DNA of 64,000 bases from Watersipora subatra (taxonomy: Eukaryota > Bryozoa > Gymnolaemata > Cheilostomatida > Watersiporidae): contig NC_088717.1 of the NCBI RefSeq assembly GCF_963576615.1, forward strand, positions 51,003,026 to 51,067,025, given 5' to 3'. Below the pieces are notes generated by a model, which saw only the letters and a program-made list of their open reading frames with translations, was not told the DNA's origin and did not search any database. Both the position numbers and the translations under genes were made by a program. Of this stretch, positions 21,935-61,740 are shown piece by piece (the stretch's first letter is position 1; each line of letters opens with the position of its first letter).

Positions 21935-23940
21935 ACAAAATTCTGAGGCACTCTACCAATCAAAATAACACAGAATGACACTTTAATGCAGTAATACATA
22001 TAATTAATAATTTGTCTAATGTCTTCATACACTTACATAGTGGGAAATGGGGATATTCTTGCAAAAATATTAGAAAGCCACACACGAAACTCTTGCTCAA
22101 CAGTTCTCAATCTCACAAATGCCTTGGATCATGCCAAATGAGGTGTCAGTAAAACACTAACATAAACATTCATACACATAACGGCAGCTCTAATAAATTA
22201 TAATACAAGTGAAAGATAAAAACATGATCAGAATGACAACAAATAACAAATAATAAATAAACTTCACATTTAGGAAACTATGGATGCAGTCATCTACCTT
22301 GTTCATTTCTTATGCTTTTCACTTGTCGTTATATGCTTTCGAAAAAGTAAAAACGTCTATTTGTCTTGCTTGACCGCTCTCAACAAAGGGGTTGATATTG
22401 CTGAAAGTTGTTTTTGAATCCAGGATGCAACCAGAACTCATTTAAAAGGCAGCACTTGACAGGGAAAATCAATTTTCCGTTAACCATTAATAGTGACTTC
22501 AATAAGATGTCAACCCATCAGACGTCAACCTTTTAAAATAAGTCAAGCTAAGAGCAAACACTCCTACCATTAATTCTATAGTCAGGTACGATTGAAGTGT
22601 TAAAAAGTGTCAACAATGTATGATTTTCATGTATGAAGTGGGTGGATATTGATGTGTAAGAGCACTCTAGAGTTAATAATACCCTTGCTTGTAGATGTTC
22701 ACATTACAGATAATTCATGGTCAATAATGACAGGCTGAGATTAGATAGGCTAAATAACAAACCTATGATTAAAAAACATTTGTTCATTATTTATTAATGC
22801 TGATTTAATATTTATAATATTTATTTAAAAATAAGTATCAAATAAATAGTAAACATGCATTTGATTATTATACTATTATAATGCATAGAGTACAGATATT
22901 GAAGTATAATTCTCACACTCAATAGTTTATCTGTATATACATATATCTCAAAGTTTGGCTATGTGTACTTGTGTAGTTCGTATAACTAGTTATAACTAGT
23001 AGAATCTCGGAATAAAGAATATGTATCGTGGAAGATTTGATTTCGGAACCTCCCCTTTTTTAGACGACATGCCAAACCATTGCGCTAAGCGAGATTGATG
23101 GATTCATTGGATGATATATGTCGCTTTGTGGGTGAAAATACGCTACCGCTCTCCGTTACGGCGCAACGTCAGTCTGTACATTAATAAGAGCGATAGATAA
23201 CTAGCTTACTTAAATTAGCCATTGGCAATGTGCCAGGCTAATGACAAGTGGCTGAGTTTTAATACCCGTGCAACGCCAGGCATTCCGCTAATATTTTTCT
23301 AAATTTGTGATCAATACTATTGATAATTGATAATATCTTCTCTCATTTAGTGAATTGGTGGAGACCTCAAGATATATGACGCCGTATCAAATGCTTTAAA
23401 GGGAAATAGAGTTAATCACGTAGCACTGGCAGCTGCTTTTTTATTACAAAATTGCAACTGATTAAAAAGCAGCGTCTATATCTGCCCATTATGTTCATTA
23501 TTGATTATTGATTATTCATTCCATTGATTATGTTCAGTATAAAACTTATTCATCCACTGTTAGTAAACATCATGCTACAACATGCCACCGCACTAGATGC
23601 TAAAATTGTTCAAAAATTGAGAACTAGAAAAATAAAATAAGTTGTGAATTGTGTGACCTTGTTATTAGTGTCTATTTAACAGCTTTAGTGGCACACGTGT
23701 AGAGACTGAAGTCTCTAAAAATAGCATTAAAGGTTGGACAACTCCTCAGACGCATTACTATTTGATACATTACAAGGTACACTGGCTGGTGCTTTGGTTA
23801 GGCATGATAAATCTGTTTGTTTCTACCTGAAAACTTGTGATGAGCAATGAAACAATATCATGTCATACCTCAACTAGCACCCAAATAGTCTCGAGTACTG
23901 TCAGTAATCAGCAAGTATAATAAGTTAATAACTATACAAA
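21935..23940. repeat. Left arm of large inverted duplication, outer non-coding part
   Basis: This matches 59780-61740 in reverse complement over essentially its whole length (for example CAATCAAAATAA, AATGACACTTTAATGCAG). No gene is seen in either arm here. Both contain a Helitron-like copy at the same place, so that insertion predates the duplication. Confidence 0.88.
22946..23291 (+). mobile_element. Helitron-like non-autonomous element
   Basis: It starts A/TCTCAAAGTTTGGC and ends ACCCGTGCAACGCCAGGCATTCCG-CTAA/T. Insertion between A and T with a CTAA end is as expected for Helitrons. The mirror copy is at 60323-60668. Confidence 0.6.
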
Positions 23941-24183
23941 CAATTATTCAGGTACAGGTTTTATAATGTTGTGGTATCAAATGTCACCAGTTTGAATCAC
24001 GTATGATGAAATTCTTTTTTCCAACATATAACCATGGTTTTGGACAAATAGACAGATGGACAGACGGCTCTTATTATAGTAATGACTTTGCCAGTCTTGT
24101 GTACTGTGAAGGATCATCATGTGAGCCAGTACAATACAGAGAATAATGATCTGCATAATTATGTGAAAGTTTCTAATGCCGAT
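23941..24183. repeat. SINE-like dispersed repeat
   Basis: It contains a B-box-like block (CCAGTTTGAATCACG), a run of T, and the tail GACAGACGGCTCTTATTATAGTAA, which recurs around 35.4, 42.95, 50.7, 59.5 and 62.9 kb. The mirror copy is 59435-59690. This is probably a tRNA-derived SINE family. Confidence 0.5.
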
Positions 24184-25352
24184 GACTAGTGCAGGTGTTA
24201 CTGCATTGGACTACTACAAATACAGTAACACCAGACTAGTACAGGTTTTACTGCATTGGACTACTACCAATACAGTAACACCAGACTAGTACAGGTTTTA
24301 CTGCATTGGACTACTACCAATACAGTAACACCAGACTAGTACAGGTGTTACTGCATTGGACTATTACCAATTCAGTAACACCTGTACTAGTCAGGTGTTA
24401 CTGCATTGGACTACTACCAATGCAGTAACACCTGTACTAGTCTGATGTTACTGTATTAGACTACTACCAATGCAGTGACACCTGTACTAGTACGGGTTTT
24501 ACTGCATTGGTAGTAGTCTAATGCAGTAATACATGTACTAATCAGGTGTTACTGCATTGGACTACTACCAATGCAGTAACACCTGTACTAGTCTGATGTT
24601 ACTGCATTAGACTACTACCAATGCAGTGACACCAGACTAGTACAGGTTTTACTGCATTGGACTACTACCAATACAGTAACACCAGACTAGTACAAGTGTT
24701 ACTGCATTGGACTATTACCAATTCAGTAACACCTGTACTAGTCAGGTGTTACTGCATTGGACTACTACCAATGCAGTAACACCTGTACTAGTCTGATGTT
24801 ACTGCATTAGACTACTACCAATGCAGTGACACCTGTACTAGTACGGGTTTTACTGCATTGGTAGTAGTCTAATGCAGCAATACATGTACTAGTCAGGTGT
24901 TACTGCATTGGACTACTACCAATGCAGTAACACCTGTACTAGTCTGATGTTACTGCATTAGACTACTACCAATGCAGTGACACCTGTACTAGTACAGGTT
25001 TTACTGCATTGGTAGTAGTCTAATGCAGTAATACATGTACTAGTCAGGTGTTACTGCATTGGACTACTACCAATGCAGTAACACCTGTACTAGTCTGATG
25101 TTACTGCATTAGACTACTACCAACGCAGTGACACCTGTACTAGTACAGGTTTTACTGCATTGGTAGTAGTCTAATGCAGTAACATCAGACTAGTACAGGT
25201 GTTACTGCATTGGTAGTAGTCCAATGCAGTAACACCTGACTAGTACAGGTGTTACTGCATTGGTAGTAGTCCAATGCAGTAACACCTGACTAGTACAAGT
25301 GTTACTGCATTGGACTATTACCAGTGCAGAAAACCTGACTAGTACAGGTGAA
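24184..25352. repeat. Hairpin satellite (long array)
   Basis: About 24 units of roughly 48 bp are present. Each is itself a hairpin: GTGTTACTGCATTGG, a 7-9 base centre reading ACTACTA or TAGTAGT, and CCAATGCAGTAACAC. Units are joined by CTAGTACAGG or CTAGTC linkers. The centre appears in both orientations from unit to unit. The shorter mirror array is 58998-59434. Confidence 0.9.
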
Positions 25353-26271
25353 TGCATGAGTTCATATGCTACTAAACTGAATGCCATGAGTTCGAATCCT
25401 GAATGATGCAATCTTTTTTCACAATTTCAAACCATGGCGTCAAATGAATGGAAAAACATAAATGATTATCATTATAGCAAAGATCCGCAATGATTCTGAT
25501 GGGTAATGCTTAATTTTGTCAAGTATTACAATTGATACTAGATGAGATACCATTAGTAAGCATAAAAAACTGCTAGAGGTCAGTTTCACCAGTCCCACTG
25601 ACCTCTAATTAGTCCAATTAATTTTCTATTTGTCATTTTTAGCCATGGAAAGGCTATCATAAACTGCTCTTTTAAAGTGCCGTCTTCACATACTATGTAC
25701 TAAAACTCATTACTGTTTTGTAACTCTTTAACGCCAAAACACTGGCTTACATATAACCATATTTTCACAGCTAAGATGAAAAGGCACTATCCAAAAAAAG
25801 ACGCATCGTTTCAACTGATGTAAAAAGCTAGCCCAATACCGAGCCACTTTTGTAGGCAAAAAAGCATTCTAAGCCTACCAGCAAAATAATCATTTCATGG
25901 ATCCACAAAGCCTTTGGTAGACACATAAAATTCCCTCCATTGAATTTAGATAAAAAATATTGGGATCGTGAACATCATTAGCATCTGATGAATGTAAACA
26001 ACAGAGGTTAAGCATGAGCTCTTACAGATGGTCTTAATAGTTATCTTCGTGGGTCAATACTAGTTGGTAGTGTTAACTAGTATTGACAGCAAGACCATCT
26101 TTACATCAATCCTCTTTCATAGTAATTTCATTACATTAATAGGCTGCTCGTGCTCAAATGCATGGGTTGACGACTCTTTACTTTAGCAATTCTTGATGCT
26201 TACATTTACAGATTTCTTTTATACATAGAGCAATCGACTAGTGGGTGCCATTCAGGCACAAGACATAGTCA
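25353..26271. other. Left-arm-specific non-coding DNA
   Basis: This segment and the following inverted block have no counterpart in the right arm, which goes directly from the satellite to sequence matching 27.47 kb. It contains a B-box-like GAGTTCGAATCC near 25390 and a CAATACTAGTT..AACTAGTATTG hairpin near 26055-26083. No gene is seen. Confidence 0.5.
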
Positions 26272-27160
26272 GCCTGCTTCAGAAACATCCTAGACAGCTT
26301 TTCCTTTAACATGGCATTCATCTGAGGCTTGTGCTCCTCTGGCCCCCCCCCCTCTGAGTAGTCAGGGTAACAGTGGTATGATTCTGATATGACTACTGGA
26401 TGTTTACTATACTCCATATCTGTTCTAACTTAGTGCATGCTCACAAGTTAATATTATTGTACTGGTCAACAGACTGACATAAAAAGAATATTCAATTTCT
26501 AGCCTGAGTTTCCATATCCTTGACCTTTGTTTATAGACTTTAAGTTTACAGGTCCACTCAGTTTCAATGACTAAATAATTCATTAGCTTCTGCGCACACT
26601 GGCTACTAGATAGGCAGTGTCTATTAGATGGTGTCTACTAAATAAACAGTATCTACTAGATGGTGTCTACTAGATAGATAGTGTCTACTAGATGGTGTCT
26701 ACTAGATGGACAGTGTCTACTAGATGGTGTCTACTAGATGAACAGTGTCTACTAGATAAACAGTGTCTACTAGATAGACAGTGTCTACTAGATAAACAGT
26801 GTCTAATAGATGGTGTCTACTAGATAGACAGTGTCTACTAGATGATGTTTACTAGATAAACAGTGTCTACTAGATGGTGTCTACTAGATAGACAGTGTCT
26901 AATAGATGGTGTCTACTAGATAGACAGTGTCTACTAGATGGTGTCTACTAGATAGACAGTGTCTAATAGATGGTGTCTACTAGATAGACAGTGTCTACTA
27001 GATGGTGTCTACTAGATAGACAGTGTCTAATAGATGGTGTCTACTAGATAGACAGTGTCTACTAGATGGTGTCTACTAGATAGATAGTGTCTACTAGATG
27101 GTGTCTACTAGATAGATAGAGACTAGATGGTGTCTACTAGATGGTGTCTACTAGATCTAC
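26272..27160. repeat. Inverted copy of 20.96-21.67 kb with expanded minisatellite
   Basis: 26272-26608 is the reverse complement of 21334-21666. 26609-27160 is the reverse-complement minisatellite (TAGACAGTGTCTACTAGA / TGGTGTCTACTAGA), about 1.5 times longer than its partner. Confidence 0.88.
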
Positions 27161-27464
27161 TAAAGAATAACGAGAAAAACGCCGATCATTCCTCTGAAAG
27201 AAATCAAACTCAACAATACTGAGTTCAGACATGCATGTAGTTGCAAACCTTTAAGATTATTTTTTAAATTCTGTGTTTTACAAAATGTGAATTTAATCAA
27301 ATCTCAGTTTGTATCACAGCTGACTGCTAATTCTTTATGGTCTCTTTCTATATATGTATACTCAGTATGGCACACGCAGAGAGGCTGGAAATCGTTACTA
27401 TTTTGAGCATTTTTTTAAAAGTTTGATTAACGCTGAATTTGCAGATATTTTTCAGCAAATAGAT

Positions 27465-28100
27465 GTGCCCGTAAATGTGCTGCAGTCCAGCATTATGCAA
27501 CCGCAAGGGAGACAATAATTAATTAAAGCTTCTACAACTCATCATCACAAAAGTTTGCATAAGGCATTTGGACTAGACTGAAGCATGCAAAAGTTATCAC
27601 CAGTGAGATTATTCAATATGCTGGCAGTAATTCATTAAATTGAGAAAGAGAAGACAATTACCAAACAGCTGCCGGTTTTTTCAGACCACGAGTCAAGGGC
27701 ATAAGTCTAAAATATAATATATCTATTGGTGTTCATGTTAGCATTGAACTGCAGTTATGGTCTTTATCCATTTTTAATAGACAATATTTGCTAATGAAGA
27801 TTTGTTTTAAATTCTAACATAATATAAGTTTATTGTATTACACTTATTGTATTGGATTTTTTTACCATTTGCTTGTGAAGTTTTGCACTAAAGCAATTGT
27901 GGCTGAATGTCTTTCCTAACACCAGGTTCGAATCCTCGTGTATCTAGACCTAATGACCTGCAGTTGATCATAAGCTGGTGTACTAACCACTGACCTGTTG
28001 ATCATACTGTCCCACAGATACTCCCTTAATTCATTGTATTCCTTCATTCATTCATTCATTCATTCATTCATTCATTCATTCATTCATTCATTGTATTGCG
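27465..28100. repeat. Left arm segment with SINE and CATT repeat
   Basis: Reverse complement of about 58390-58985. 27890-28015 (minus) is the head of a tRNA-derived SINE (GGATTCGAACCTGGTGTTAGG), and about 28040-28098 is a (CATT)n run of roughly 13 units. The SINE body is cut short here compared with the right arm. Confidence 0.7.
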
Positions 28101-28417
28101 CTAAAAGTAGTCAATAGACCAATTGCAAACACTCACTACAAAAATATCATATAACGTCGCTGTAAACAAAAATAGTAATTTAAAAAAAGAACAGTTTTTT
28201 TAATATTTATGATACACACAAAGTAACAATAGGAAGAATCATAATAACGGACAGCTATGGTTCAAATAAATAAGGAGAACCATCTATAAATAGTTGTCGT
28301 TTGGGTGGGCTACATCGGCCACACAGCTAACTTTTACTCAAAAGTAGTATCAGATTAAAGTGCATCAGAATTCAAATGAGAAATCTTCTTTGATGGACAA
28401 CTGAAGTTATAGTACGC

Positions 28418-28536
28418 TCATGGCTGCTCCGGTTGAGAGATATTCACACAGTCATTTGGAGTGTAGTCTTTGCTGAACGTATGCCAGACATTGCGTGGCC
28501 TTTCATTAACCAAGTCACACATGTACTTCATGTAAT
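28418..28536 (-). pseudogene. Fucosyltransferase pseudogene, last exon (premature stop)
   Basis: It follows acceptor gattttacag and in phase 1 completes GAT, giving DYMKYMCDLVNERPRNVWHTF. The frame ends at TGA (28418-28420), exactly where the right-arm copy has TGT (Cys). Beyond the stop the next 24 codons still match the right-arm C terminus, so the stop truncates a once longer protein. Confidence 0.8.
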
Positions 28537-29796
28537 CTGTAAAATCCAACAGCAGACGTTTCCTTAGAAAACATGAGTGTGTTTCCAGACAAGAAACAAT
28601 ATGAAAAAAGTTCACACGATAAATGGAGTAAAGGCAGGTTTATGAAAGACAGTATCGTGGGCGTTTTTGGACTTGAAATCAACAAATGACCATGAGTGGG
28701 TAAACCATAAACCAGAAGTCATACTGATTGCACCTCTAACAGTTGCCAGTTAGCTGTCACTTGTTAACTAGAGTGGCTTATCACAAATAGCTGATCATCA
28801 GCAGATTTGAGCTTGGCTCTGGCAACTTTGCTGTTTACATATAATATTAGAATGCATGACTGTTAATACATTTACTTTGTCTCATTAAAACTAATTTTTA
28901 AAAGGAAAGCAACATAGCAAAAACTAATTTATTATTACCAAATACAGCAAATGGTGAATTGTTTGCTGCAACTTTAAAAAATAAATGGGATAATTTTTTT
29001 CTTAGAAATTGTACAGCAACTGATCACATCGCAAAGTCAAACATTGGATTTCAAATTCCACAATCCGCAAGCTTAGCCTTTTAAAAATATACGACTGCTA
29101 ATAATCTGACAAGAACTTAATATTTAATATAAACTTTGTAAATTTTGGCTTCTGGCATAAATTTTACATGAATCAATATCAATTACTTTTATTGGACCAC
29201 ACAAAGCTTGATTCCACAAACAAAACATTAAATTTTAAATACGTACATCAAACTTCATGAAAATATGTTGATTGAACAAAAGGTACCATCCAGTTATTGA
29301 AATTGGACATTATAATTTGAAACATGCAAAGTTATGTTCCCTGTAACGTGTTGGTTTGTGAGGACTACAGCTATATTGTTGGACCATAGAAATTAGTCAA
29401 AAAATGTGACTATTCTAGAACATTCTCCAACCATATCACCTGCTGTTTTTTTGGTGTAGAAAAAAGACACTGTCTACACTTTAAGCTTCAGCAATTCTAC
29501 AAATCACAGGCTTAAACTGTTCCACTGCTAGATACAAGGCTGATTATTAGCAGAAAAACAAAATTTGTAAGTTTTTTTTCTATGAGTAGGTGGCGCCAAG
29601 TGGAAATTTTTTATATTTTTCAATGTCTAATAGTTAATAATATTGAACACAGAAAGCAGTGTAAAGCCTATATAAAGTTTACAGCGGCGTCCTAGGCTGA
29701 CTTTGCAAAGCTTGAATGTATATTTCATTATGACAACCAGAGTAATTGAGAGAATGAGAGAGTGTTTTGGATGGATACTTATAAGTCGAGACATAC

Positions 29797-30786
29797 CAAC
29801 GTAGTATCCCAAGCTTCTGTAGTCATCAAACATGGTGAAATGGCTCGTGTCAATCTTATACTCATTCTTCCACTTATTGTAGTAGTTGAACGCCTGTGCA
29901 TTTTGTGACACAAACTGCAGGTGCTCGGCAAGTGCTTTGGGCGACGTAAAATTTCTAACATGGATAAAGCTGTGTGGAGGAGTGATGGAAGCATAGTCCT
30001 CCATAGAAAGTCCACCCAGAGCTACCGGTATAGTCGTGCTGTTGGCTATAAGAACTTTCCAAAATTTTCCAGAAATGTAATCTTTGCATAAATTGTTTTC
30101 AAAGCTGAGATAAAACATGTAGTCTTGCATTCGTGGTTGACCTCTCCGATTAATCGTACCGCTTATTTTTTTAAAAGTCGTTGGGCACGCCTCTTTTCTT
30201 GCTAACGTATGAAGATCAATGGTTATATATTTAGATAGCTCTAAAACATACTCTTCTCGTCCACCGAGTATATTATTGGTATCATTCCACTTTTTGCAAT
30301 GTGAAACACACCAAAGCGCGCGCAATTTTAGCATATTAGGATAAGGAGTGTAGAAATAGGCCAAGGGTGGCGTTATCTTCATTAGCCTTGGTCGAAACAC
30401 ATGGTAGCTTTCTTCTGTTGTCCTATCAAATGTAACGCTGTAGTTGAAGAAGCCATCCCATCGCGGCTGTAGTGAGGCGTGTTTTATTTTTACTTGAGGT
30501 TCCTTTGAATAAAAAATCCACAATTGTCCTGGATATTTTTGTGGTGGGGTTTTAAGATAGTAAATATCTTTTTCACTGAATGCGATCACATCTGCTCCAA
30601 CTGTGCTGTTTGCTCCATGTTCATAGAAACAGGTATTTTTACCAGTTTTTACATGACCTCTGTGGAAACTGTGAGAATAGCTTGTCAGTTGTCGTATTAA
30701 AATTCTTTTGGCATTCATGGTTACTTGTATTACTTGCTCTGTTTTAAGTATTTTGATGTCATTATACCTGTTTGTTGTTGGTTTAT
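29797..30786 (-). pseudogene. Fucosyltransferase (GT10) pseudogene, main exon, left arm
   Basis: Near-identical to 55767-56753. The frame is open through the catalytic region: LWCVSHCKKWND..GGREEYVLELSKYI, then FYLSFENNLCKDYISGKFWK, PVALGG and PPHSFIHVRNFTSPKALAEHL, the GT10 nucleotide-sugar-binding block. The donor G/GTATGT at 29797 is intact. The acceptor in front of the exon has changed from GTAG to GTAA (30787-30788), and exon 1 carries a nonsense codon, so a correct transcript cannot encode the full enzyme. One extra codon distinguishes its 5' end from the right copy. Another possibility is use of the internal ATG at 30718 from a different promoter, which would give a protein without a membrane anchor. 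Confidence 0.82.
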
Positions 30787-30950
30787 TTACAATAAGAATA
30801 AATACAAAGTCTCAGACGCCTTTGTCATAGCTTGAGAACTAAAGATCCTCAAAGCTCACTGATTATTTCAAAGATTAGCTCCGGTTTATAACTTGTATAT
30901 TTTGAAGAATAGTCGCTTCATACATTGCATGGCTAGAGTTTAGTAACACA

Positions 30951-31014
30951 AACGTGTTCAGACACGTTCAGACATGTTCAGACACGTTCAGACATGTTCA
31001 AACATGTTTAGACG
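30951..31014. repeat. Tandem decamers resembling p53-family half-sites, left arm
   Basis: About six head-to-tail 10-mers of the type AGACATGTTC / AAACATGTTT are present. Several fit RRRCWWGYYY and others have C or G at the centre. The mirror set is at 55549-55598. Confidence 0.7.
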
Positions 31015-31086
31015 GTACATGAAATAGTCTCAGTATAACAAGCAGCATGCTTTTCCATTGCTTGCATCTCACCAGTTGCTATACCT

Positions 31087-31436
31087 TAAAGCCTGGTTCC
31101 CATATAGTACACAGTCCCGAGTATCGCCGGCAAGATCGCAAGTCTATCGGCTATGGAATAGGAACATACGCACTGAGTACTGCCATTATTTGCAACGGTA
31201 GTCAACGCAAAAGTTCAGTGCTGTTCAAACTTTGCAAGGAGCCGCCAGCAAAACCTTTTCCAATGTACAGGTAAAATTCAGCACTTTTAAAACGGCATAG
31301 CGGGTGACCATTTTTATGTGACAATCAGCGACACAGCTTTATGAGAACATAAGCTGTCGAGTCTATCACTGCAAGTGTTTTGCTACACCGATTACAGCCG
31401 GGGTCTTGCAGCGGATATGGTAAACACGCTTTAGAT
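31087..31436. mobile_element. MITE-like repeat in fucosyltransferase intron 1
   Basis: About 350 bp with imperfect inverted ends (AAAGCCTGGTTCCCATATA and the complement of CATATGGTAAACACGCTTT). The right arm holds it twice (54488-54834 and 55126-55478). No coding content. Confidence 0.55.
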
Positions 31437-31559
31437 AAGCACAGTGTTTGTGCTTTTAAACCTTAATTGAGAATAAATAGGTAAGTCAACAGAGCAAACA
31501 TGAAGCTTTTCGTAATAATAAAATCTGTGAACACTTCAATTTACTAACTTTGCTAAATT

Positions 31560-32045
31560 ACACCTCCAGGTACTTCTACTTTCCGACTGAAAAGCATATC
31601 TTGGCAAACCAGCCAAATATTGTAGTGATAGATGAAGAGAGCAAGATGCGTACTATAATAAATATAGAAGTACTCTATGACTACATCATATCCAGTAAAA
31701 AGGAAAAAGTGGAGAGATATCTCTAACTCAAAGAGAAGATTGAAAACTGCTGACATGCAAGAGTAACTGTCGTTCTGTTAGTCATCGGAGTACTGGGTGC
31801 AACAACACCTACACATAAAATGTGGCCCAAATACCAGCAACAATTATCACAAGCTGCAGAAAAGTGTGCTATTGGGAACTAAGCCATCACCAGTAGCGCT
31901 TTTCTGCAACTCGCTTGTGTTGATTGTTGCTCGTATTTAGATTTTGAGGAGAGTGCAAAAACTCCCAGGCCTCTGGTATAAGATCGGAGCTTGAGTAGAC
32001 ATTACCCTCCACGTGGGCAAATGAGGGGATGAGACACAATTTATA
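31560..32045 (+). pseudogene. RLE retrotransposon 3' fragment (old copy)
   Basis: It encodes pieces of the C-terminal endonuclease region (HILANQPNIVV, TIINIEVLYDYI, SSKKEKVERYL) with stops, then the 3' UTR end GATGAGACACAATTTATA running into TA-rich DNA. The right arm has the mirror relic at 54165-54370, so the insertion predates the inverted duplication. Confidence 0.75.
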
Positions 32046-32072
32046 TACAGTATACTTATCTATATATATATT

Positions 32073-32488
32073 TCTCAAAGTCTGTCGTCCTTCGGTATGT
32101 CCAGCTATTGCTATTATTAAAATAGCTGTAGCTGGACGATGCTGACGCACATCATGGAGTACTGTCATTAGAAGCCTAGCGCTTATTAGCAAGCTTACTG
32201 AAAATTTCCATTGACAATGTGCCAGTATAATAGCAAGTGGCCAGCAACTCTCATTACTTCTCATTGTTTATAAGCTGATTTTTAATACCATTTTCCATTG
32301 GCCTTGTGCCAGGCCAATAGCAAGTGGTAAGCAACTCTCATCACTTATCATTATTTATAAGGTGACTTTTAATACTATTTTCCATTGGCAATGTACCAGG
32401 CTAATAGCAAGCGGTCGGCAACTCTCATCACTTCTCATTGTTCATTGGCGGATTTTTAATACCCGGGCAATGCTGGGGGTGCAGCTAA
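32073..32488 (+). mobile_element. Helitron-like element with internal 84-bp triplication
   Basis: It starts TCTCAAAGTCTGTCG and ends ACCCGGGCAATGCTGGGGG..GCAG-CTAA/T. The block CCATTGGC..TGTGCCAGGCTAAT..CAACTCTCAT is repeated three times at about 32205-32460. A second, truncated 5' end starts at about 32511. Confidence 0.55.
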
Positions 32489-32675
32489 TTTATATATACG
32501 TATATATTTCTCAAAGTATGCCCATATGTATGCATTCCGGCTATAGCTATTAAATTTTTGATGGATTTGAATTCACCGTGAATGCATCGACAAGTTTTTT
32601 ATCCGGGCGGTCTACCACTGAGCTAGAACGGCATATTGATCACAGATGTTTTCATATCCCATGCACATGCTAATT

Positions 32676-33745: not shown

Positions 33746-33754
33746 ATACGTCAA

Positions 33755-33826
33755 AGACACTAACATATATTGTACATTTTGGCGTATGCATACGCTATAT
33801 GTACAGTATATGTTAGTGTCTTTGAT
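33755..33826. repeat. Hairpin next to foldback element
   Basis: GTCAAAGACACTAACATATA is matched by its inverted copy TATATGTTAGTGTCTTTGA, with a small palindrome GCGTATGCATACGC between them. Confidence 0.75.
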
Positions 33827-49745: not shown

Positions 49746-49810
49746 CGGTCATGTGCGTATCAAATTAATTCTTTTTCTCCACATAAAACAGTTATTTTGT
49801 GTTGTTGTAG

Positions 49811-50047: not shown

Positions 50048-51756
50048 TTCACCAGTATCCATCTGTCCAATCGCACAAATATATATTCTATCCACATGTA
50101 CATATATGTTTATTTTCAATCAGCTGTCTTTTCTGTCATTTACCTTGTCTATCTTAGAATCCATCTTTATTCTGTTTTATATTTAACTATGTGAGTAGGT
50201 CCGTTTTATTAGACCGCTACGGCTCCGCTAGTCTGCCAGTGCGTGATGTCTAAATACGGTTCTATTACAGTTTTACTTCTATTTCAGATTTTTTATCTTC
50301 CAACGACGATTTCTCAACTGATTTCTAAATTAAGTTTCAAAAGAGAGAAAATATAATCATGGTCATTTGGAAAATGTTTAATGGAACTATCAGTTGGAAG
50401 GCTCTTTGAGATGAGATGAAGACATTATTTAGTAAAGTACAACCTTCTGTGCACAAGGTTTTTGAATAAAAAGACTTTTTTAGAAAATTAATCTGTTTAC
50501 CAGACAGGTGATCAAACAGATATTTGCTCTTGGAAGGCTACTAGCTTTTAAAAGCAACTATCGGTAGTACCCTGGTTGTTCAAGGCACCGCGAAAAACCA
50601 TTTGGTGTAATAAGTAACTGCGCAATTATTCCAAAGTACAGCAAGGTGGTTGATTGAGGCAGATGGTACAATGTCAGCCAGCCAGGCAGAAAGCCATAGC
50701 TTAACATCTAATTGAAAACTTTAGTTTCCGCATCTCTAAGCATGGCTTCAGACAGATGGCTAGACACAGTTCTTATTATAGTAAAATAAATTGACAAGTA
50801 GCGTGTGAAAGATCGCTGAAGGTGAATAGAATATAAAGAGTAGAAGATAAAGGCTGGTTGAATAAACATTAAAACACGGGTTTTACATGGTCTGACTCTT
50901 TGCTGTCTATGAGGAAGGCAAGGAGTCAACATACCTTAGGAGTGTAGATAGTGACAATTGCAAAAACTTGTCATAGAGTTACTAAACTTGTTGCATTACA
51001 CCATCTTTACTACAAGAAGAGCCTGGTAAGTTATATTCTGAAGCTGTGGTTTGCATTTGGGTAAATGCTTGTCTCATACAGGGTTTAAATCTTGTGATAT
51101 TCAGTTTGACGGCGCTACATTCTAGCAATTAGGCTAACCATCGACCTTCTAGTATATTAGAATAATTGTACCCATAACTATTCTGTTTTTATTGGCGCAT
51201 CTAACGATATCGGAGAGCGCTCTAGACTGCCATGGTAGTTTGTTTATAATATATATATATATTTGTCTTTTTATGTCTTTGCCAATCTTAAGATTCCAGC
51301 CACTCAAGTTCATATTGCTTTTCTAGCTAGAAGGGAGCAATTGTTTAGCTATCACGTACTGTTAAGAAACTACTCTAAAACAACATACTATCACACATAG
51401 TGTGTATATAAGATTTAAGCTATTCTTAATAGACCACCTTTGAAAGGTGACATGTGAAAGAGCGGATAACTCTACCTAATTGACATTCAGTTAGAAATGA
51501 CAGCACATCAAGACATATGGATATAAAATTAAGCTTGCAGTCTCTGCCAATAGCTCCATTTCATATGCAGTTTATCAGCTTGCTATATGTACAATAGTCA
51601 GATTCATTAGGAAGCTTTCCAATTGTGCATAAAAGCTTCTATCCGCTCGTCATTGTGGTCTTTTCAATGTCTAAACACTGCGCTAGGAAATTGAACTACG
51701 GTTGCCTAAGAACACTAGTTACTAGTAATTATTTCAGTACAGTGGTGAATCTCAAC
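50048..51756. repeat. K+ channel-FUT intergenic block, right copy
   Basis: Reverse complement of 34417-36149, with the same SINE-like unit. The fucosyltransferase promoter and 5' UTR should lie near its end, but no TATA or initiator match is convincing. An in-frame ATG at 51667 precedes the chosen start. Confidence 0.7.
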
Positions 51757-51844
51757 ATGAAGCGACATTTTGCATCGCTAGTTTTGATCTCACTAGTTGC
51801 TATTATAGTTTACATGTACACAACCCAAGACTCAAAGTATTTAG
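51757..51844 (+). CDS. Alpha-1,3-fucosyltransferase exon 1 (signal anchor)
   Basis: Twenty-nine codons end at donor TTAG/GTAAGT in phase 1. MKRH is followed by a hydrophobic stretch of about 16 residues (FASLVLISLVAIIVYMYT), giving a four-residue cytoplasmic tail and a type II membrane anchor, the normal topology of Golgi fucosyltransferases. A is at -3 of the ATG. The in-frame ATG 30 codons upstream would add a long polar tail and is less likely. The phase matches the exon at 55767. Confidence 0.8.
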
Positions 51845-53164
51845 GTAAGTTTCTCAGACACTAGCATAGCATGATTTTAAGAGTAAAACAAACAGCAACT
51901 GTAATTAATGGAAATAACGATTTCACTGATACTAAGTGAAACAAATATCATCATCTATGCAAGAAATTTACATAAAACATTCACATATTTAGTTATAATA
52001 TGAAAGTACGATACTCTTCACTCAGTCAATCTATGAGTGTTAATTTTTTTTTGGCTACTGATGTATAGACAGGGGGAGCGGGTTGAGAAGAGTGTATATA
52101 CAGCTTAGATGTTTACTTTGGACTATCTCTTGACAAATTGACTATATTGCTGTGCAATGCTCACTCCGCCCGGCTATCCAGAATACAGAACAAAGTTATA
52201 ACTAGTGTTAACCTTTCGCAACTTTGTAGATCATTTTTAAATAGAATAAGTAATTAAATTTTATTATTAGCTTATTTTCTGTCATAGAATATACGTCACA
52301 CATGTTTATAATGATCTTCCTCTAGGTCTTAGATAGAAACTGTTGTGTATTCACTCACCACAACTTCCCGCCTCCGTAGCAGGAAGAAGAATGCTCTCTT
52401 TTTTACACCCTTCTCCATATCTAGTCAGCTATTCCTTAGCTTTATCAATAAGCTGAGAAAGCTACATAATCCTGCAAGCCTGTGTGAGAGGCTTTGCTTC
52501 CCAAAACCTATCTGGCTCCCTTAGCCCAAGTTCCTGTAACATAGTCAGGCGCGCAAGATACGTCTGCGTATACAACAGAATGCATGTAGAATGTTTCAAA
52601 ATTTTATCTTATTTCAACAAAAAACTTTATGTCTCTCTCAATTGCCTTACTTTTTTCTTTTAGCGAGACATTTTGCCCCAAGTTTACATCCATCAGTACA
52701 TTCACCTTCATTGAGTAGAAAATTTGCTTCGTATTGGAAACTGTCTTAGCTCCATTACCAAGTCATGTAATCCTACAAACTATATCATCTCTCAAAGAGA
52801 CAATCATACTTTTCCTTGCCTTCTTTATGTCTTTTTCTGCCAGACTATTTGAAAGTACTACTTCCTCTACATTTAAACATGGACTTACACAAAATTTTGT
52901 AGATTTTATCAAAAAGTATTGGTGTGTTTCTATCATTTGCGATTGTCATTGATGTTTGAGGATCTGATAGCCAGGATGTTTCAAGATGAAACTTGAGAAA
53001 ACCTGACCGCAGTTAAAAAGCTTGTATATAGTAAGAGTACTATACTAAGTACAGATGCATGTATATAAGAGTTTTAACTGTCGCAGGCTTATTTATATGT
53101 CTATAATATATATTACACATACACATAATATATAGACATACATGTATATTATATTATATATGTA

Positions 53165-53535
53165 CTAGCTGCGCTACCCTGCGTTGCCTGGGTAATAAAA
53201 AGGTCTTTGGACAGAAAATTGATTTGTATTTAACATATAATAAACTTTCCCATTCTTACTTTCAAACTACATATCATGAGATAAGTGTTTCGTGTAGTTG
53301 AAATCAATTAAGAGAAAAATAAAAACAACTGTAAAGGTTTTAAAACTTTGTCAAATGACTGTAACTTTTAAGCTATTAGCCTGGCACACTGCCAATGGAA
53401 GATTCATGTAAGCTAGTTACAGTAATAAGCGCTGGGCTTCTAATGAAGGTAAACCATGACATTGCGTAAGCATTGTCCAGCTAAGCTATTTTAATATCTA
53501 ATAGCTATAGCTGGAGGGACACGCATACTTTGAGA
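53165..53535 (-). mobile_element. Helitron-like non-autonomous element
   Basis: Minus-oriented: begins CTAGCTGCGCTACCCTGCG (hairpin end) and finishes ACTTTGAGA, the inverted TCTCAAAGT start. Confidence 0.55.
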
Positions 53536-53547
53536 AATATATATATA

Positions 53548-53980
53548 CTAGCAGTGCTACCTGGCGCTGCCCGGGTAATAGAAAAGTATTTGGACAGAAA
53601 ATTGATTTGTGTTTAACATATAACGACATTTGCCATTCTAACTATCAAACTACATATTATGAAAAAAGCGTTTTGTCTTATAAACAATAAGTAGTGAGAG
53701 TTACTCGCTATTAACCTGTTTAATAATGTGAGCGAACAGCTTCTGGTGACGTTATGCTATGACCCTCGTCATACGCAAAGCAGTTAGGTATTTGCTCCCA
53801 TATAATGATTTATATTGGCAAGCTAGCAATTTGATTTCTGTAGTCTAGTGGGTAAGGCGTAAGACTGGCGAGGCAGGGTCTGAGAACAAATCTTTTTTGG
53901 TACGGAATATTTATTCTAAGATTTTAAGATCTATAGCCGGACAATCAATCCTACAAACCTACATATGACAAACTTTGAGA
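53548..53980 (-). mobile_element. Helitron-like non-autonomous element with tRNA-like block
   Basis: Minus-oriented copy adjacent to the previous one, with CTAGCAGTGCTACCTGGCG at the left and AACTTTGAGA at the right. Plus strand 53845-53905 has TCTAGTGGGTAAGGCGTAAG and a B-box-like GTCTGAGAACAAATC. Confidence 0.55.
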
Positions 53981-54015
53981 AATAAATATATATAGATATA
54001 TAAGATAGAGATATA

Positions 54016-54017
54016 AG

Positions 54018-54095
<78 letters not shown>
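54016..54095. repeat. (TA)n(TG)n microsatellite
   Basis: About 60 bp of TA followed by about 14 bp of TG. Confidence 0.95.
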
Positions 54096-54164
54096 ATAAC
54101 ATTTATATAGTATATGTATCTGTATACTAAACTTCTAATAACTACTAGAGTTATAGTTACTCTT

Positions 54165-54370
54165 ACATGTCAGTATTTTTCAATCTTATCTCTGAGTGGG
54201 AGACACGTAGTTTTTCAGGTTATCCTTTTTCTTTGCTGGCTGTGTTGCAGTCATTGGGTTCTGCTATATCTGTTATGGTAGCCCTCTTGCTCTCTTTGTC
54301 TATCGCTACAATATTAGGCTGGTTTGCCAAGACAGCCTGTCAGTCCGGAAGTAGAAGGCCCCGGAGGTGT
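54165..54370 (-). pseudogene. RLE retrotransposon fragment, mirror of 31.56 kb
   Basis: The minus strand retains degraded endonuclease-region codons (KTAWQT.., VAIDKESKRATIT.IAEPND, SKEKG). Same fragment as 31560-31800 in the opposite arm. Confidence 0.65.
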
Positions 54371-54483
54371 AATTTAGCAATTTTAGTAAATTGAATTGTT
54401 CATATTTTATTATTACTAAAAGTTTTAAGTTTGCTCTGTTGACAAATTTATTCTCAATAAGGTTTAAAAGCATAAACACGGCG

Positions 54484-55120
54484 CATAGCTAAAACGTGGT
54501 TCCCACATCGGCTGCGAGACCCCGGCTGTGATTTCGCACAGCTTAACATTTGCCCCGCTAGACTCGGCAGCTTATGTTCACATAAAGCTCGTCGCTGATA
54601 ATCGCATAAAAATGGCCACTCATCACGCAGTTTCAAAAATGCTGATCTTTACCTGTACAGTGCATTTAGGGAAGGTTTTGCCTGTAGCCTGTTGCAAGTT
54701 GAATAGAGCTGAAGCCTTGCAATATTCGGCAAATACCACGTTACTTGGAGTATAGGTCCTAACTTCACCGCCGATAGCACTGGGATCCTGCCAGCAATAC
54801 TCGGGACGTTTATATAGGAACCAGGCTTTAAGGTGTGACAAAAGCGTGTTGCTTGTTGTACTGAGACTATTTCGTGTACAGCCTGAACGTGTCTGAACAC
54901 GTCTGTGGTACACAACTCTAGCCATACAATGTACAAAGTGACAATTCTTCATAATATACATGTTATAAACTGGAGCAAATCTTTGAAATAATCAGGGAGT
55001 TTTGAGGATTTTTAGTTCTCCAGCTATGACAAAGCTAAATGTGGCTTGACTCAACTTGGTACCTATTCTTATTTTAGATAAATCAACAACAAACAGGTAT
55101 AATTATATGCTAAATTATCA
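54484..55120. repeat. Tandem duplication unit 1 in FUT intron 1
   Basis: It contains the MITE-like repeat (54488-54834), two imperfect 10-mers (54885-54905) and at its end a copy of the exon 2 acceptor and first 30 exon bases (decoy acceptor at 55076-55077). Unit 2 (55120-55800) contains the real exon 2 start. The left arm has only one unit. Confidence 0.75.
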
Positions 55121-55125
55121 TAGCT

Positions 55126-55478
55126 AAAGCGTATTTCCCATATCGGCTGCGAGACCCCGGCTGTAATCTCGTGTAGCAAAACACTTGCAGTGATATACTC
55201 GACGGCTTATGTTCTCATAAGGCTGTGTCGCTGATTGTCACATAAAATGGTCACTTGCCATGTCGTTTTAAAAGTGCTGACTTTCACCTGTACATTGGGA
55301 AAGGTTTTACTGGCGGCTCCTTGCAAAATTTGAACAGCACTGAACTTTTGTGTTGACTACTGTTGCAAATACTGGCAGTACTCGGTGCGTATGTTTCCTA
55401 TTCCATAGTCGATAGCCTTGCGATCTTGCCGGCGATACTCGGAACTGTGTACTATATGGGAACCAGGCTTCAAGGTAT
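55126..55478. mobile_element. MITE-like repeat, second copy in FUT intron 1
   Basis: Same element as 54488-54834 and 31087-31436; ends AAAGCGTATTTCCCATATC and GGGAACCAGGCTT. Confidence 0.55.
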
Positions 55479-55548
55479 AGCAACTGGTGAGATGCATGCA
55501 ATAGAAAAGCATGCTGCTTGTTATACTGAGGCTATTTCATGTATCGCT

Positions 55549-55598
55549 AAACATGCCTGAACATGTTTGAACATGTCTGAACGTGTCTGAACACGTCT
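55549..55598. repeat. Five tandem p53-family-like decamers
   Basis: AAACATGCCT, GAACATGTTT, GAACATGTCT, GAACGTGTCT and GAACACGTCT are head to tail without spacer. The first three fit RRRCWWGYYY exactly. They are located 170 bp upstream of exon 2. Confidence 0.7.
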
Positions 55599-55766
55599 GT
55601 GTTACTAAACTCTAGCCATGCAATGTATGAAGCGACTATTCTTCAAAATATACAAGTTATAAACCGGAGCTAATCTTTGAAATAATCAGTGAGTTTTGAG
55701 GATTTTTAGTTCTTAAGCTATGACAAAGGCGTCTGACGCGAGACTTTGTATTTATTCTTATTGTAG

Positions 55767-56753
55767 ATAAATCAACAACAAACAGGTATAATTATGTCAA
55801 AATACCTAAAGCAGAGCGGATACAAGTAACCATGAATGCCAAAAAAATTTTAATACGTCAACTGACAAATTATTCTCACAGTTTCCACAGAGGTCATGTA
55901 AAAACTGGTAAAAATACCTGTTTCTATGAACGTGGAGCAAACGGTACAGCTGGAGCGGATGTGATTGCATTCAGTGAAAAAGATATTTACTATCTTAAAA
56001 CCCCACCACAAAAGTATCCAGGACAATTGTGGATTTTTTATTCAAAAGAACCTCAAGTGAAAATAAGGAACGCCTCACTACAGCCGCAATGGGATGGCTT
56101 ATTCAACTACAGTGTTACATTTGATAGGACAACAGAAGAAAGCTACCACGTGTTTCGACCCAGATTAATGAAAATAACACCACCCTTGAATCATTTCTAC
56201 ACTCCTTATCGTAATATGCTAAAATTGCGTGCGCTTTGGTGTGTTTCACATTGCAAAAAGTGGAATGATACCAAAAATATACTCGGTGGACGAGAAGAGT
56301 ATGTTTTAGAGCTATCTAAATATATAACCATTGATCTTTATACATTACCAAGAAAAGAGGAGTGTCCAACGACTTTTAAAAAAATAAGCGGTAAGATTAA
56401 TCGGAGAGGTCAACCACGAATGCAAGACTATATGTTTTATCTCAGCTTTGAAAACAATTTATGCAAAGATTACATTTCTGAAAAATTTTGGAAAGTTCTT
56501 ATAGCCAACAGCACGACTATACCAGTAGCTCTGGGTGGACTTTCTATGGAGGACTATGCTTCCATCACTCCTCCACACAGTTTTATCCATGTTAGAAATT
56601 TTACATCGCCCAAAGCACTTGCCGAGCACCTGCAGTTTGTGTCACAAAATGCACAGGCGTTCAACTACTACAATAAGTGGAAGAATGAGTATAAGATTGA
56701 CACGAGTCATTTCACCATGTTTGATGGCTACAGAAGCTTGGGATACTACGGTG
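55767..56753 (+). CDS. Alpha-1,3-fucosyltransferase (GT10), main catalytic exon
   Basis: Transfers fucose from GDP-fucose to N-acetylglucosamine-containing glycans in the Golgi lumen (family role). Acceptor ttattgtag, donor G/GTATGT; with exons 51757-51844 and 58013-58194 the CDS is 1257 bases, 418 residues, all phases agreeing. In full-length numbering, residues 52-180 are the N-terminal acceptor-side lobe (IAFSEKDIYYLK, LWIFYSKEPQ, FNYSVTFDRT). Residues about 183-222 carry the family block LWCVSHCKKWND..R.EYVLELSKYITIDLY. Residues about 251-320 are the GDP-fucose lobe: FYLSFENNLCKDYISEKFWK, PVALGG, PPHSFIHVRNFTSPKALAEHL. N-glycosylation sequons NYS, NST and NFT fit a luminal enzyme. No stops or frameshifts. 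Orthology within GT10 (Lewis-type or core alpha-1,3) cannot be decided by eye. Confidence 0.88.
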
Positions 56754-58012
56754 GTATGTCTCGACTTATAAGTATCTATCCAAAACATTCTCTCATTCTT
56801 TCAACCACTTTGGTTGTAGTAATGAAATAAACATTCAAGCTTTGCAAAGTCAGCCTTGGACGGAGCTGTAAATTTTATATAGGCTTTACACCGCTTCCTG
56901 TGTTCAATATTATTAACTATTAGACATCGGAAAATATAAAAAATCTTCACTTGGCGCCACCTGCTCATAGAAAAAAAACTTTCAAATTTTGTTTTTCTGT
57001 TAATCATCAACCTTGTATCTAGTAGTGGAACAGTTTAAGCCTGTGATTTGCACAATTGTTTAAGCTTGTAGTGTAGGCAGCGCCTTTTTTCTACACAGAA
57101 AAAATCAGCAGGTAATATGGTTGGAGAATGTTTTAGAATAGTCACATTGTGTTGACTAATTTCTGTGGTCCAACAATATAACTCTGTGCCTGACAAACCA
57201 ACACATTACAGGGAACATAACTTCAATTTTTAAAAATTATATTATCCAGCTTCAATAACTGGATGGTACTTTTTGTTCAATCAACATATTTTCATGAAGT
57301 TTGATGTACATATTTAAAACTTGAAGTTTTATCACTGGAGTCAAGCTTTGTGTGGTCCAATAAAAGTAATTGATATTGATTCATGCACAATTTATGCCAA
57401 AGGCCCAAACTTTACAAAGTTTATATTAGATACTAAATAACTGTCAGAATATTAGCAGTCGCGTAACTTTAAAAGGCTAAGCTTGCGGATTGTGGAATTT
57501 AAATGCAATGTTTGACTTTTCGATGTGATCAGTTGTTGTACAATTTCCAAGAAAAAAATTATATTTTTTTTAAGTTGCAGCAAACAATTCAGCATTTGCT
57601 GTACTTGGTAATAGTAAATTAATTTTTGCTATAATGCTTTCCTTTTAAAAATTAGTTTTTAATGAGACAAAGTAAACGTATTAATAGTCATGCATTCTAA
57701 TATTATATGTAAACAGCAAAGTTATCAGAGACAAGCTCCAATCTGCTGATAATCAGTTATTTGTGATAAGCCACTCTAATCAACAGGTGACAGCTAGCTG
57801 GCAACTGTTGCAGGTGCAATCACTATGAATTGTGATTTACGATTTTCCCACTTATGGTCATTCGTTGGTGATTTCAAGTTCAAAAACGCTCACTATACCG
57901 TCTGTCATAAACCTGCCTCTACCTCATTTATTATGTAAAAAATTTCGTATTGTTTCTTGTCTGGAAACGCATTCATTTCTTTTAAGGAAACGACTGTTGT
58001 TGGATTTTGTAG
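56754..58012 (+). other. Fucosyltransferase intron 2, right arm
   Basis: 1.26-kb intron, the mirror of 28537-29796 in the left arm, with well preserved alignment. No transposon insertion or other gene is seen in either. Confidence 0.75.
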
Positions 58013-58194
58013 ATTACATGAAGTACATGTGCGACTTGGTTAATGAAAGGCCACACAATGTCTGGCATACGTTCAGCAAAGACTACACTCCAAATGACTG
58101 TGTGAATATCTCTCGACCGGACCAGCCATGTGCGTATTACAACTTCAGTTGCCCATCAAAGAAGATTTCTCATTTGAATTCTGATGCATTTTAA
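58013..58194 (+). CDS. Alpha-1,3-fucosyltransferase last exon
   Basis: After acceptor gattttgtag the exon completes GAT and reads DYMKYMCDLVNERPHNVWHTFSKDY, then a Cys-containing tail (NDCVNIS..DQPCAYYNFSCPSKK) to TAA. GT10 enzymes typically have C-terminal cysteines in disulfides, and this copy keeps three that the left-arm copy partly loses to a stop. Confidence 0.85.
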
Positions 58195-58404
58195 TCTGAC
58201 ATTACTTTTGAGTAAAGGTTAAATGTGTGGCTCGAAGCAGCCCACCCAAACGACAACTATGTATGGATAGTTCTCGCTGTTTATTTAAACCATAGCTGCT
58301 CGTTATTATAATTCTTCCAATTGTTAATTTGTGTGTATCATAAATATAAAAAAAACTTTTTTTTTTAAATGATATGAATGAATAAATGAATACTATGAAT
58401 TAAG

Positions 58405-58640
58405 GGAGTATCTGTGATTGAGTGGTTAGTGCGCCAGCTTATAATCAACAGGTCCAGTGGTTCGAGACACACAAGGATTCGAACCTGGTGTTAGGAAGGG
58501 CATCCAGTCACAATTGCTCTAGTGCCAAACTTCACGTACAAATGGTAAAAAACCATTTGCAGTGGCAACCCCTGATGCGGAAAAGCCGGAATAAGGAGCG
58601 CGAGTGTAATACAATAAACTTCAATAATGTTAGAATTTAA
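58405..58640 (+). mobile_element. tRNA-derived SINE, V-SINE-like
   Basis: The head has GAGTGGTTAGTGCGCCAG (A-box region) and GGATTCGAACCTGG (B box). It is followed by the central motif TGTTAGGAAGGGCATCCAG and the tail block GTGGCAACCCCTGATGCGG..AAAAGCCG, which are recognisable in SINEs from many aquatic animals. It ends near AATACAATAAACTTCAATAATG. The left arm has a truncated copy (27890-28015). Confidence 0.75.
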
Positions 58641-58997
58641 AACAAATCTTCATTAGCAAATATTGCCTGTTAAAGATGGATAGAGATCAGAACTGCAGTT
58701 CGATGCTAACATGAACACCAATAGATGTATTAAATTCTAGACTAATGCCCCTTGACTCGTGGTCTAACAGACCGGCAGCTATTTCGGTAATTGCCTTCTC
58801 TTTCTCAATTTAATGAATTATTGGCAGCTTACTGAATAATCTCACTGGTGCTAATCCCACTGCTGCTAACTCTTGCATGCTTCAGTCTAATCCAAATGTC
58901 TAATGCAGACTTTTGCGATGATGAGTTGCGGCAGACTTTATTAATTATTGTCTCCCCTTGCGGTTACATGATGCTGGACTGCAGCCCATCTATAGGC
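58641..58997. repeat. Right arm segment matching 27465-27830
   Basis: Non-coding; reverse complement of the left arm up to the satellite junction. Confidence 0.75.
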
Positions 58998-59434
58998 ACA
59001 TCTACAGACCAACGCAGTAACACCAGAACTAGTCAGGTGTTACTGCATTGGTAGTAGTCCAATGCAGTAATACCTGTACTAGTCAGGTATTACTGCATTA
59101 GTAGTAGTTCAATGTAGTAACACCTGACTAGTGCAGGTGTTACTGCATTGGACTATTACCAATTCAGTAACACCTGACTAGTACAGGTGTTACTGCATTG
59201 GACTACTACCAATGCAGTAACACCTGACTAGTACAGGTGTTACTGAATTAGACTACTACCAATGCAGTAACACCTGACTAGTTCTGGTGTTACTGCATTG
59301 GTAGTAGTCCAATGCAGTAACACCAGACTAGTACAGGTGTTACTGCATTGGTAGTAGTCCAATGCAGTAACACCTGACTAGTACAGGTGTTACTGTATTG
59401 GTAGTAGTCCAATGCAGTAACACCTGTACTAGTC
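58998..59434. repeat. Hairpin satellite (short array)
   Basis: About nine units of the same hairpin satellite as 24184-25352, again with the centre in both orientations. The array is about 440 bp against about 1170 bp in the left arm. Confidence 0.9.
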
Positions 59435-61740
59435 ATCGGCATTAGAAACTTTCACATAATTAAGCAGATCGTTATTTTCTGTATTGTACTGGCTCACATG
59501 ATGATCCTTCACAGTACACAAGACTGGCAAAGTCATTACTATAATAAGAGCCGTATCCGTCTATCTGTTCATCCAAAACCATCATACGGGATTCAAACTA
59601 GTGACATTTGGTACCATAACATTCTAAAACCTGCACTAATCAACCACCTCGCCACATTTGAGAATAATTGTATGTATAGCTATTACACTCGCTGATTGCA
59701 GACAACATTTGAGACTGCCTGGGTGTTAGTCGAAGTATGATAAGTAAGACATATAATCTTGTTTCTTTGTTCAGCACAAGTTTTCAGGTAGACATAAACA
59801 AACTTATCATGCCTATCCGGAGCACCAGCCAATGTACCTTGTAATGTGTCAAATAGTATTGTGTCTGAGGAGTTGTCCAACCTTTAATGCTATTTTTAAA
59901 GACTTCAGCCTTTACACATGTGCCACTAAAGCTGTTAAATAGACACTAATAACAAGGTCACACAATTCACAACTTATTTTATTTTTCTAGTTCTCAATTT
60001 TTGAACAATTTTAGCATCTAGTGCGGTGGCATGTTGTAGCATGATGTTTACTAACAGTGGATGGATAAGTTTTATACTGAACATAATCAATGGAATGAAT
60101 AATCAATAATCAATAATGAACATAATGGGCAGATATAGACGCCGCTTTTTAATCAGTTGCAATTTTGCAATAAAAAAGCAGCTGCCAGTGCTACATGATT
60201 AACTCTATTTCCCTTTAAAGCATTTGATACGGTGTCACATATCTTGAGGTCTCCACCAATTTACTAAGTGAGAGAAGATATTATCAATTATCAATAGTAT
60301 TGATCACAAATTTAGAAAAATATTAGCGGAATGCCTGGCGTTGCACGGGTATTAAAACTCAGCCACTTGTCATTAGCCTGGCACATTGCCAATGGCTAAT
60401 TTAAGTAAGCTAGTTATCTATCGCTCTTATTAATGTACAGACTGACGTTGCGCCGTAACGGAGAGCGGTAGCGTATTTTCACGCACAAAGCGACATATTT
60501 CGTCCAATGAATCCATCAATCTCGCTTAGCGCAATGGTTTGGCATGTCGTCTAACAAACGGGAGGTTCCGAAATCAAATCTTACGCGATACATATTTTTT
60601 ATTCCGAGATTCTACTAGTTATAATTAGTTATACAAACTACACAAGTACACATAGCCAAACTTTGAGATATATGTATATACAGATAAACTATTGAGTGTG
60701 AGAATTATACTTCAATATCTGTACTCTATGCATTATAATAGTATAATAATCAAATGCATGTTTACTATTTATTTGATACTTATTTTTAAATAAATATTAT
60801 AAATATTAAATCAACATTAATAGATAATGAACAAATGTTTTTTAATCATTGGTTTGTTATTTAGTCTATCTAATCTCAGCCTGTCGTTATTGACCATGAA
60901 TTATCTGTAATGTGAACATCTACAAGCAAGGGTATTACTAACTCTAGAGTGCTCTTACGCATCAATATTCACCCACTTCATACATGAAAATCATACATTG
61001 TTGACACTTTTTTAACACTTCAATTGTGCTTGACTATAAAATTAATGGTCGGAGTGTTTGCTCTTAGCTTGACTTATTTTAAAAGGTTGACGTCTGATGG
61101 GTTGACATCTTATTGAAGTCACTATTAATGGTTAACGGAAAATTGATTTTCCCTGTTAAGTGCTGCCTTTTAAACGAGTTCTGGTTGCATCCTGGGTTCA
61201 AAAACAACTTGCAGCAATATCAACCCCTTTGTTGAGAGCGGTCAAGCAAGACAAATAGACGTTTTTACTTTTTCGAAAGCATATAACGACAAGTGAAAAG
61301 CATAAGAAATGAACAAGGTAGATGACTGCATCCTTAGTTTCCTAAATGTGAAATTTATTTTGCTATTTGTTGTCATTCTGATCATGTTTTTATCTTTCAC
61401 TTGTATTATAATTTATTAGAGCTGCCGTTATGTGTATGAATGTTTATGTTAGTGTTTTACTGACACCTCATTTGGCATGATCCAAGGCATTTGTGAGATT
61501 GAGATCTGTTGAGCAAGAGGTTTGTGTGTGGTTTTTTAATATTTTTGCATGAATACCCTCCTTTCCCACTATTTATGCGTATGAAAAAATTAGACAAATT
61601 ATTAATTATTACTATTATCAATTATATTATTATATATTATTATATTATTAATTATATTATTATATTTTTAGTTATTATTGTACTACTGTATTAAAGTGTC
61701 ATTCAGTATTATTTTGATTGGTAGTGTGCCTCAAGATTTT
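59435..61740. repeat. Right arm of large inverted duplication, outer non-coding part
   Basis: Reverse complement of 21935-24183. It contains the mirrored SINE-like unit (59435-59690). The end of homology is close to 61740 (TTGATTGGTAGTGTGCCTCA); the left arm meets its TA/TATTGTTA tract just outside the matching point. No gene. Confidence 0.85.
60323..60668 (-). mobile_element. Helitron-like element, mirror of 22946-23291
   Basis: The plus strand reads TTAGCGGAATGCCTGGCGTT at the left and AACTTTGAGA/T at the right. Confidence 0.6.

Follow-up and report, generated by a model that had tools for sequence, protein, structure and literature searches.

An old inverted duplication of a fucosyltransferase gene and a Kv channel exon in Watersipora subatra

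Genes and repeats of the locus

We have analyzed a window (the whole stretch of DNA under study) of 64,000 nucleotides. It is eukaryotic in character: It has 37% G+C, LINE-type reverse transcriptase ORFs and long AT and CA microsatellites. Searches of the whole window gave no Rfam matches at gathering scores and no tRNA genes.

The main feature is a pair of mirrored arms, detected by self-BLAST of the window. The left arm (L, about 21.94–36.62 kb) is the reverse complement of the right arm (R, about 61.74–49.56 kb). Four inverted blocks are colinear between the arms, and inspection by eye pushes the outer ends out to about 21938 and 61740 (Table 1). Minus-strand matches to R cover 10,221 bases of L, while none of 20 shuffled versions of R (6-base blocks) gave any matching bases. 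The plus-strand control matched 1,168 L bases, most likely coming from a largely self-complementary 50-base satellite. The homology is thus long, colinear and in reverse complement, and it includes non-repeat sequence, as in an inverted segmental duplication. The large inverted duplication with a spacer of about 13 kb proposed in a sequence-only reading is borne out. That reading placed the arms at 21.9–36.4 and 49.8–61.7 kb; the mirrored match stands, but the arms are not continuous. The homology is interrupted at about L 31.74–33.9 and R 52.26–54.15 kb, which are poorly alignable or unrelated, except for one match of about 175 bases (78%).

Table 1. Features of the window and divergence between its arms
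Feature	Positions	Strand	Identity, divergence or basis
Left arm (L)	21938..36625	+	Self-BLAST, edges by eye
Right arm (R), reverse complement of L	49557..61740	-	Self-BLAST, edges by eye
Inverted block	L 21992-24608 / R 61617-59011		91.1% identity, self-BLAST
Inverted block	L 27460-28060 / R 59004-58368		78.1% identity, self-BLAST
Inverted block	L 28178-31437 / R 58370-55121		90.7% identity, self-BLAST
Inverted block	L 33916-36625 / R 52249-49557		81.7% identity, self-BLAST
Spacer (about 13 kb)	36626..49556	.	Two LINE copies, broken channel exon, Penelope-like element
R fucosyltransferase exon 1 (hydrophobic N-terminal segment)	51757..51844	+	Predicted
R fucosyltransferase exon 2 (GT10 domain)	55767..56753	+	Pfam profile, splice reading
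R fucosyltransferase exon 3 to stop	58013..58194	+	Predicted
L exon 1 start, stop at codon 3	34396..34416	-	Comparison with R
L exon 2 open frame	29723..30811	-	Acceptor AG to AA (within 30779-30796)
L exon 3, acceptor to premature stop	28406..28546	-	Stop within 28406-28426
L Kv pore/S6 exon	36153..36435	-	Frameshifted
R Kv pore/S6 exon	49780..50044	+	Frameshifted, TVGYED in filter
T Kv pore/S6 exon	63643..63930	-	Open
Kv first exon (BTB to S4), upstream of L pore exon	40588..41524	-	Broken
T, third copy of L 34.90-36.5 kb	62425..64000	+	Self-BLAST; runs to window end
LINE copies, three	18510-20962, 37005-39456, 43819-45862		94.6-96.4% alike, self-BLAST
Element with inverted parts	46326-49441		Parts 97.3% alike, self-BLAST
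L-only insertion with 32-base satellite	25351..27458	.	Arm alignment
50-base satellite, L	24185..25350	.	23.3 units
50-base satellite, R	59009-59433	.	8.5 units
Tandem duplication (copies 54484-55106, 55119-55795)	54484..55795	.	Copies 71.5% alike
L-R divergence segment	L 21960-22090		23.8%; 130 sites beside AT-rich insertion, partly alignment noise
L-R divergence segment, conversion-like tract	L 22091-23686		2.5% (39/1590 aligned sites)
R partner of conversion-like tract	59928..61518	.	Arm alignment
L-R divergence segment	L 23687-29762		11.8%
L-R divergence segment	L 29763-31387		5.5%
L-R divergence segment	L beyond 31387		13.9%

Each arm contains a three-exon GT10 fucosyltransferase gene, next to which lies the final exon of a Kv channel gene. 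The R gene model has GT donors and AG acceptors at its joins and a single frame, which reads as an intact protein of 418 amino acids. This product matches the Pfam profile Glyco_transf_10 with 132.3 bits (cut-off 23.9, E 2.1e-38). The Glyco_tran_10_N profile remains below its Pfam cut-off in the same product (23.9 bits vs 28.7), and we have judged this domain dispensable for GT10 membership. R is thus a predicted GT10 fucosyltransferase by its C-terminal domain and its DYISEK motif. The L copy is broken: It has two stops, in exons 1 and 3, it has lost the splice acceptor of exon 2, and in this exon the Glu of the conserved DYISEK motif is replaced by Gly. We take this Glu to be a residue with a role in H. 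pylori FucT. FUT9, FucTA and another GT10 enzyme (7yro), the three that we have aligned, all have it, and it is not named in the available parts of PMC8433944 and PMC11949838.

In a 362-codon open frame around exon 2, whose ends both extend into introns, comparison of L and R gives a Ka of 0.037–0.041 and a Ks of 0.12–0.16. These values indicate selection on at least one of the two fucosyltransferase lineages for much of the time after their split.

The window also contains a further channel gene (gene A), with exons at 11882–10863 and 7545–7333. The Kv first exon at 10860–11882 (minus strand) has a BTB domain (Pfam E 1.2e-16), and its best solved relative is Kv4.2 (E 4.8e-16); presumably it has few basic residues at the expected S4 position. 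The broken exon at 41524–40588 looks similar to it. A 19-base tandem satellite is found nearby, at 9947–10736 (41.6 units, 0% indels according to TRF).

The three LINE copies and the Penelope-like element are found outside the arms. The LINE copies differ less from one another than most of the arms do; the first one contains the Pfam domain RVT_1, with zf-RVT below cut-off. Old fragments resembling the LINE 3' end are found in both arms (31569–31879 and 54137–54361), about 75–77% alike to the full copies. For three frames of the element at 46326–49441, which we take to be Penelope-like by resemblance, Pfam gave no match at E 0.01.

Several segments set the arms apart and correspond to later events: the L-only insertion, a foldback, an R-only segment and the length of the 50-base satellite, whose L and R arrays match each other on both strands. 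The first three agree with the sequence-only reading. The insertion, which it had placed at 25.35–27.46 kb, is found in the arm alignment, and part of it matches 20964–21671 in reverse (93%). The foldback near 32.68 kb is an inverted repeat of about 1.1 kb, with arms at about 32673–33154 and 33275–33747, and 52256–53160 (52.26–53.16 kb) has no counterpart in L. The tandem duplication at 54.5 kb, which had also been taken as a later event, is not supported as one. Both its copies are kept in R and one in L, and it is probably older than the arms, because its copies are 28% different, more than the arms are.

Divergence between the arms

We have segmented the L–R divergence after excluding the satellite, the L-only insertion and the unalignable stretch (Table 1). 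Most non-coding intervals are 11–18% different. The three intervals 3' of the enzyme gene show 11–13%, and four of the five intervals in L 33920–36130 show 11.5–18.1%; L 34560–34897 reaches 17.2%, and three short stretches reach 20% or more. Lower values are found around exon 1 (8.3%) and on the intron side at 30820–31387, where only 33 of 556 sites differ. Divergence differs by region without a full explanation, this intron side and L 34560–34897 being two of the cases.

The arms appear to be old paralogues, because of the divergence of most non-coding intervals and the similar Ks of the shared gene. Two haplotypes joined head to head during assembly would also give mirrored arms, but this is very improbable indeed: Most non-coding sequence is 11–18% different, the arms have different insertions, one gene copy is broken and the other one open, the spacer has 13 kb, and there is a third copy of one segment, described below.

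The sequence-only reading had suggested looking for conversion tracts through the identity along the arms, and one such tract is found, at L 22.09–23.69 kb. It is less diverged than the adjoining sequence (38/1555 vs 272/2297 sites, Fisher p 1.7e-29). Its edges are sharp, with more diverged homology on both flanks, which covers only about 150 bases on the outer side. This strongly suggests a later gene conversion between the arms, which may have gone in either direction. Strong constraint on a conserved non-coding element would likewise leave few differences, but we consider it improbable for this tract. Such an element would hardly have sharp edges, and parts of the tract (L 23003–23122 and 23198–23252) are similar to repeats elsewhere in the window. 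In L, the tract does not fully contain any stop-to-stop frame of 55 codons, among the frames that begin at 21900 or beyond. The arms do not behave as a palindrome homogenized throughout by conversion: The 2.5% value is found in one tract, against 11–18% in most non-coding intervals. Long inverted repeats of this size are in general unstable, as the sequence-only reading noted; at this locus, the visible traces are this tract and a mosaic of the three copies of the channel exon, described below.

We have also considered conversion of the fucosyltransferase exon, where L and R differ at 63 of 1086 sites. Its Ks is similar to the divergence of the non-coding intervals. Conversion was therefore rejected, and the low number of differences is read as constraint.

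The third copy and the origin of the mirrored arrangement

A third copy (T) of the channel-exon end of the arms, absent from the sequence-only reading, is found at 62.4–64.0 kb. Its homology to R and L begins at about L 34898. The match between R (49679–51307) and T (64000–62425) is inverted (86%). It covers a coding exon and its non-coding flank, and we have therefore rejected a mere dispersed repeat.

The three copies form a mosaic. Of the 1510 sites without gaps, 135 support R+T, 84 L+R and 61 L+T, while nine are different in all copies. The pattern switches at L 35359, and none of 2000 permutations gave as strong a change. In L 35.36–36.5 kb (n=1061), R and T differ by 8.4%, L and R by 14.4%, L and T by 14.6%. 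R and T also have in common, against L, a 26-bp gap and two 12-bp stretches. Over these 1.1 kb, R and T are nearer to each other than either is to L, and they group as sisters. In L 34.90–35.36 kb, the differences are 11.6% (L–R), 14.5% (R–T) and 16.3% (L–T), with 42 LR, 29 RT and 21 LT grouping sites out of 449; nine adjacent LR sites are probably one event. In this part the copies can hardly be ordered, with what looks like a slight lean towards L+R. With the exon of gene A as outgroup, 215 sites, too few for rooting, gave 1 shared derived base for R+T, 2 for L+T and 0 for L+R.

The history which we favor, with modest confidence, is that of an old paralogous inverted duplication, with no active system, in which a tandem duplication was followed by a staggered-break inversion. 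A block made up of the fucosyltransferase gene and then the Kv channel gene would have been duplicated in direct tandem, with a period of about 26–27.5 kb. The right fucosyltransferase unit would then have been inverted through staggered breaks, turning the direct pair into mirror-image arms and leaving behind a second, inverted copy of the neighboring channel-exon segment (R 49.56–51.31 kb vs T 62.43–64.0 kb). From the channel exon in the direction of the first exon of the enzyme, L and R continue without a break, and T ends within this interval, at L ~34898. T lies 0.7 kb from the end of the right fucosyltransferase unit, and the two gene pairs have a similar spacing (26 and 27.5 kb, according to the exon coordinates). 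Flipping the right unit would restore the order of L beside T. This is the pattern expected if a direct tandem copy had been inverted through staggered breaks, and an inverted duplicate is found at both ends of the proposed inverted segment.

The L fucosyltransferase has lesions, as do the channel exons of both arms; open frames are kept by the fucosyltransferase of R and by the channel exon of T. Satellite changes and LINE, Penelope-like and foldback elements have accrued, presumably in this later period. Finally, the conversion of about 1.6 kb very probably re-homogenized L 22.09–23.69 kb.

A simple inversion does not account for everything. The copies in L 34.90–35.36 kb do not group as R+T, so that some exchange must be added to the proposed history. 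A repeat fragment at the edge of T could have caused the cut of T. This fragment, at 62232–62415 and 81.7% alike to 17145–17331, ends about ten bases before T starts. Because of the mosaic before 35359 and this fragment, we retain another explanation as a serious but clearly less probable one: The L block, with the fucosyltransferase and the channel exon, may have been copied directly in inverted orientation beside a pre-existing channel gene, T, with a later R/T conversion over 1.1 kb. Over L 34.90–35.36 kb, L and R are slightly more similar to each other, with T outermost, and the L–R divergence 3' of the enzyme gene (11–13%) is below the L–T one (14.6–16.3%). Adjacent inverted copies are also the majority of the youngest same-chromosome duplicates in C. 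elegans, according to the available part of PMC4546093. On the other hand, a direct inverted copy requires a conversion which covered 1.1 kb or more and carried several indels, and the end of the R arm 0.7 kb from T, together with the cut of T on its fucosyltransferase side, would be due to chance.

Comparison with other inverted duplications

Titles and abstract openings gave no literature on this locus. The arms resemble the inverted segmental (gene) duplications of animal genomes, with nearby paralogous blocks in opposite orientation, decay of a gene in one copy and local conversion. Unlike in these duplications in general, the origin is complicated here by a third, partial copy and by an inversion which probably came later. 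In Drosophila subobscura, staggered-break inversions such as O8 have inverted duplications derived from one breakpoint, and truncated breakpoint copies decay while the other copy stays functional, as given in the accessible part of PMC5080602. An inverted duplicate at each end of the segment, its proposed origin from one breakpoint and the decay of a truncated copy beside an open one are shared with our locus, but the proposed inverted segment has only about 11 kb here and is deduced from this locus alone. The arms of Y-chromosome palindromes are kept alike by gene conversion (PMC3403216, in the part available). Conversion between inverted arms is presumably common to both cases, but the arm blocks are 78–91% alike here, with near-identity in one tract only.

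In summary, the inverted duplication is real, old and ordinary in kind, and by itself it opens no long-standing question. Arms which are more than 10% different may still exchange a 1.6-kb tract, so whole-arm identity may be misleading for dating such duplications. The locus allows one to read how a gene copy decays next to a partner which remains open, and how inverted arms may arise from tandem duplicates. We suggest, tentatively, that a direct tandem pair became mirror arms through a staggered-break inversion of about 11 kb, and that the parent copy, the inverted unit, the duplicated breakpoint segment and the later conversion may all be read in a single 64-kb stretch.
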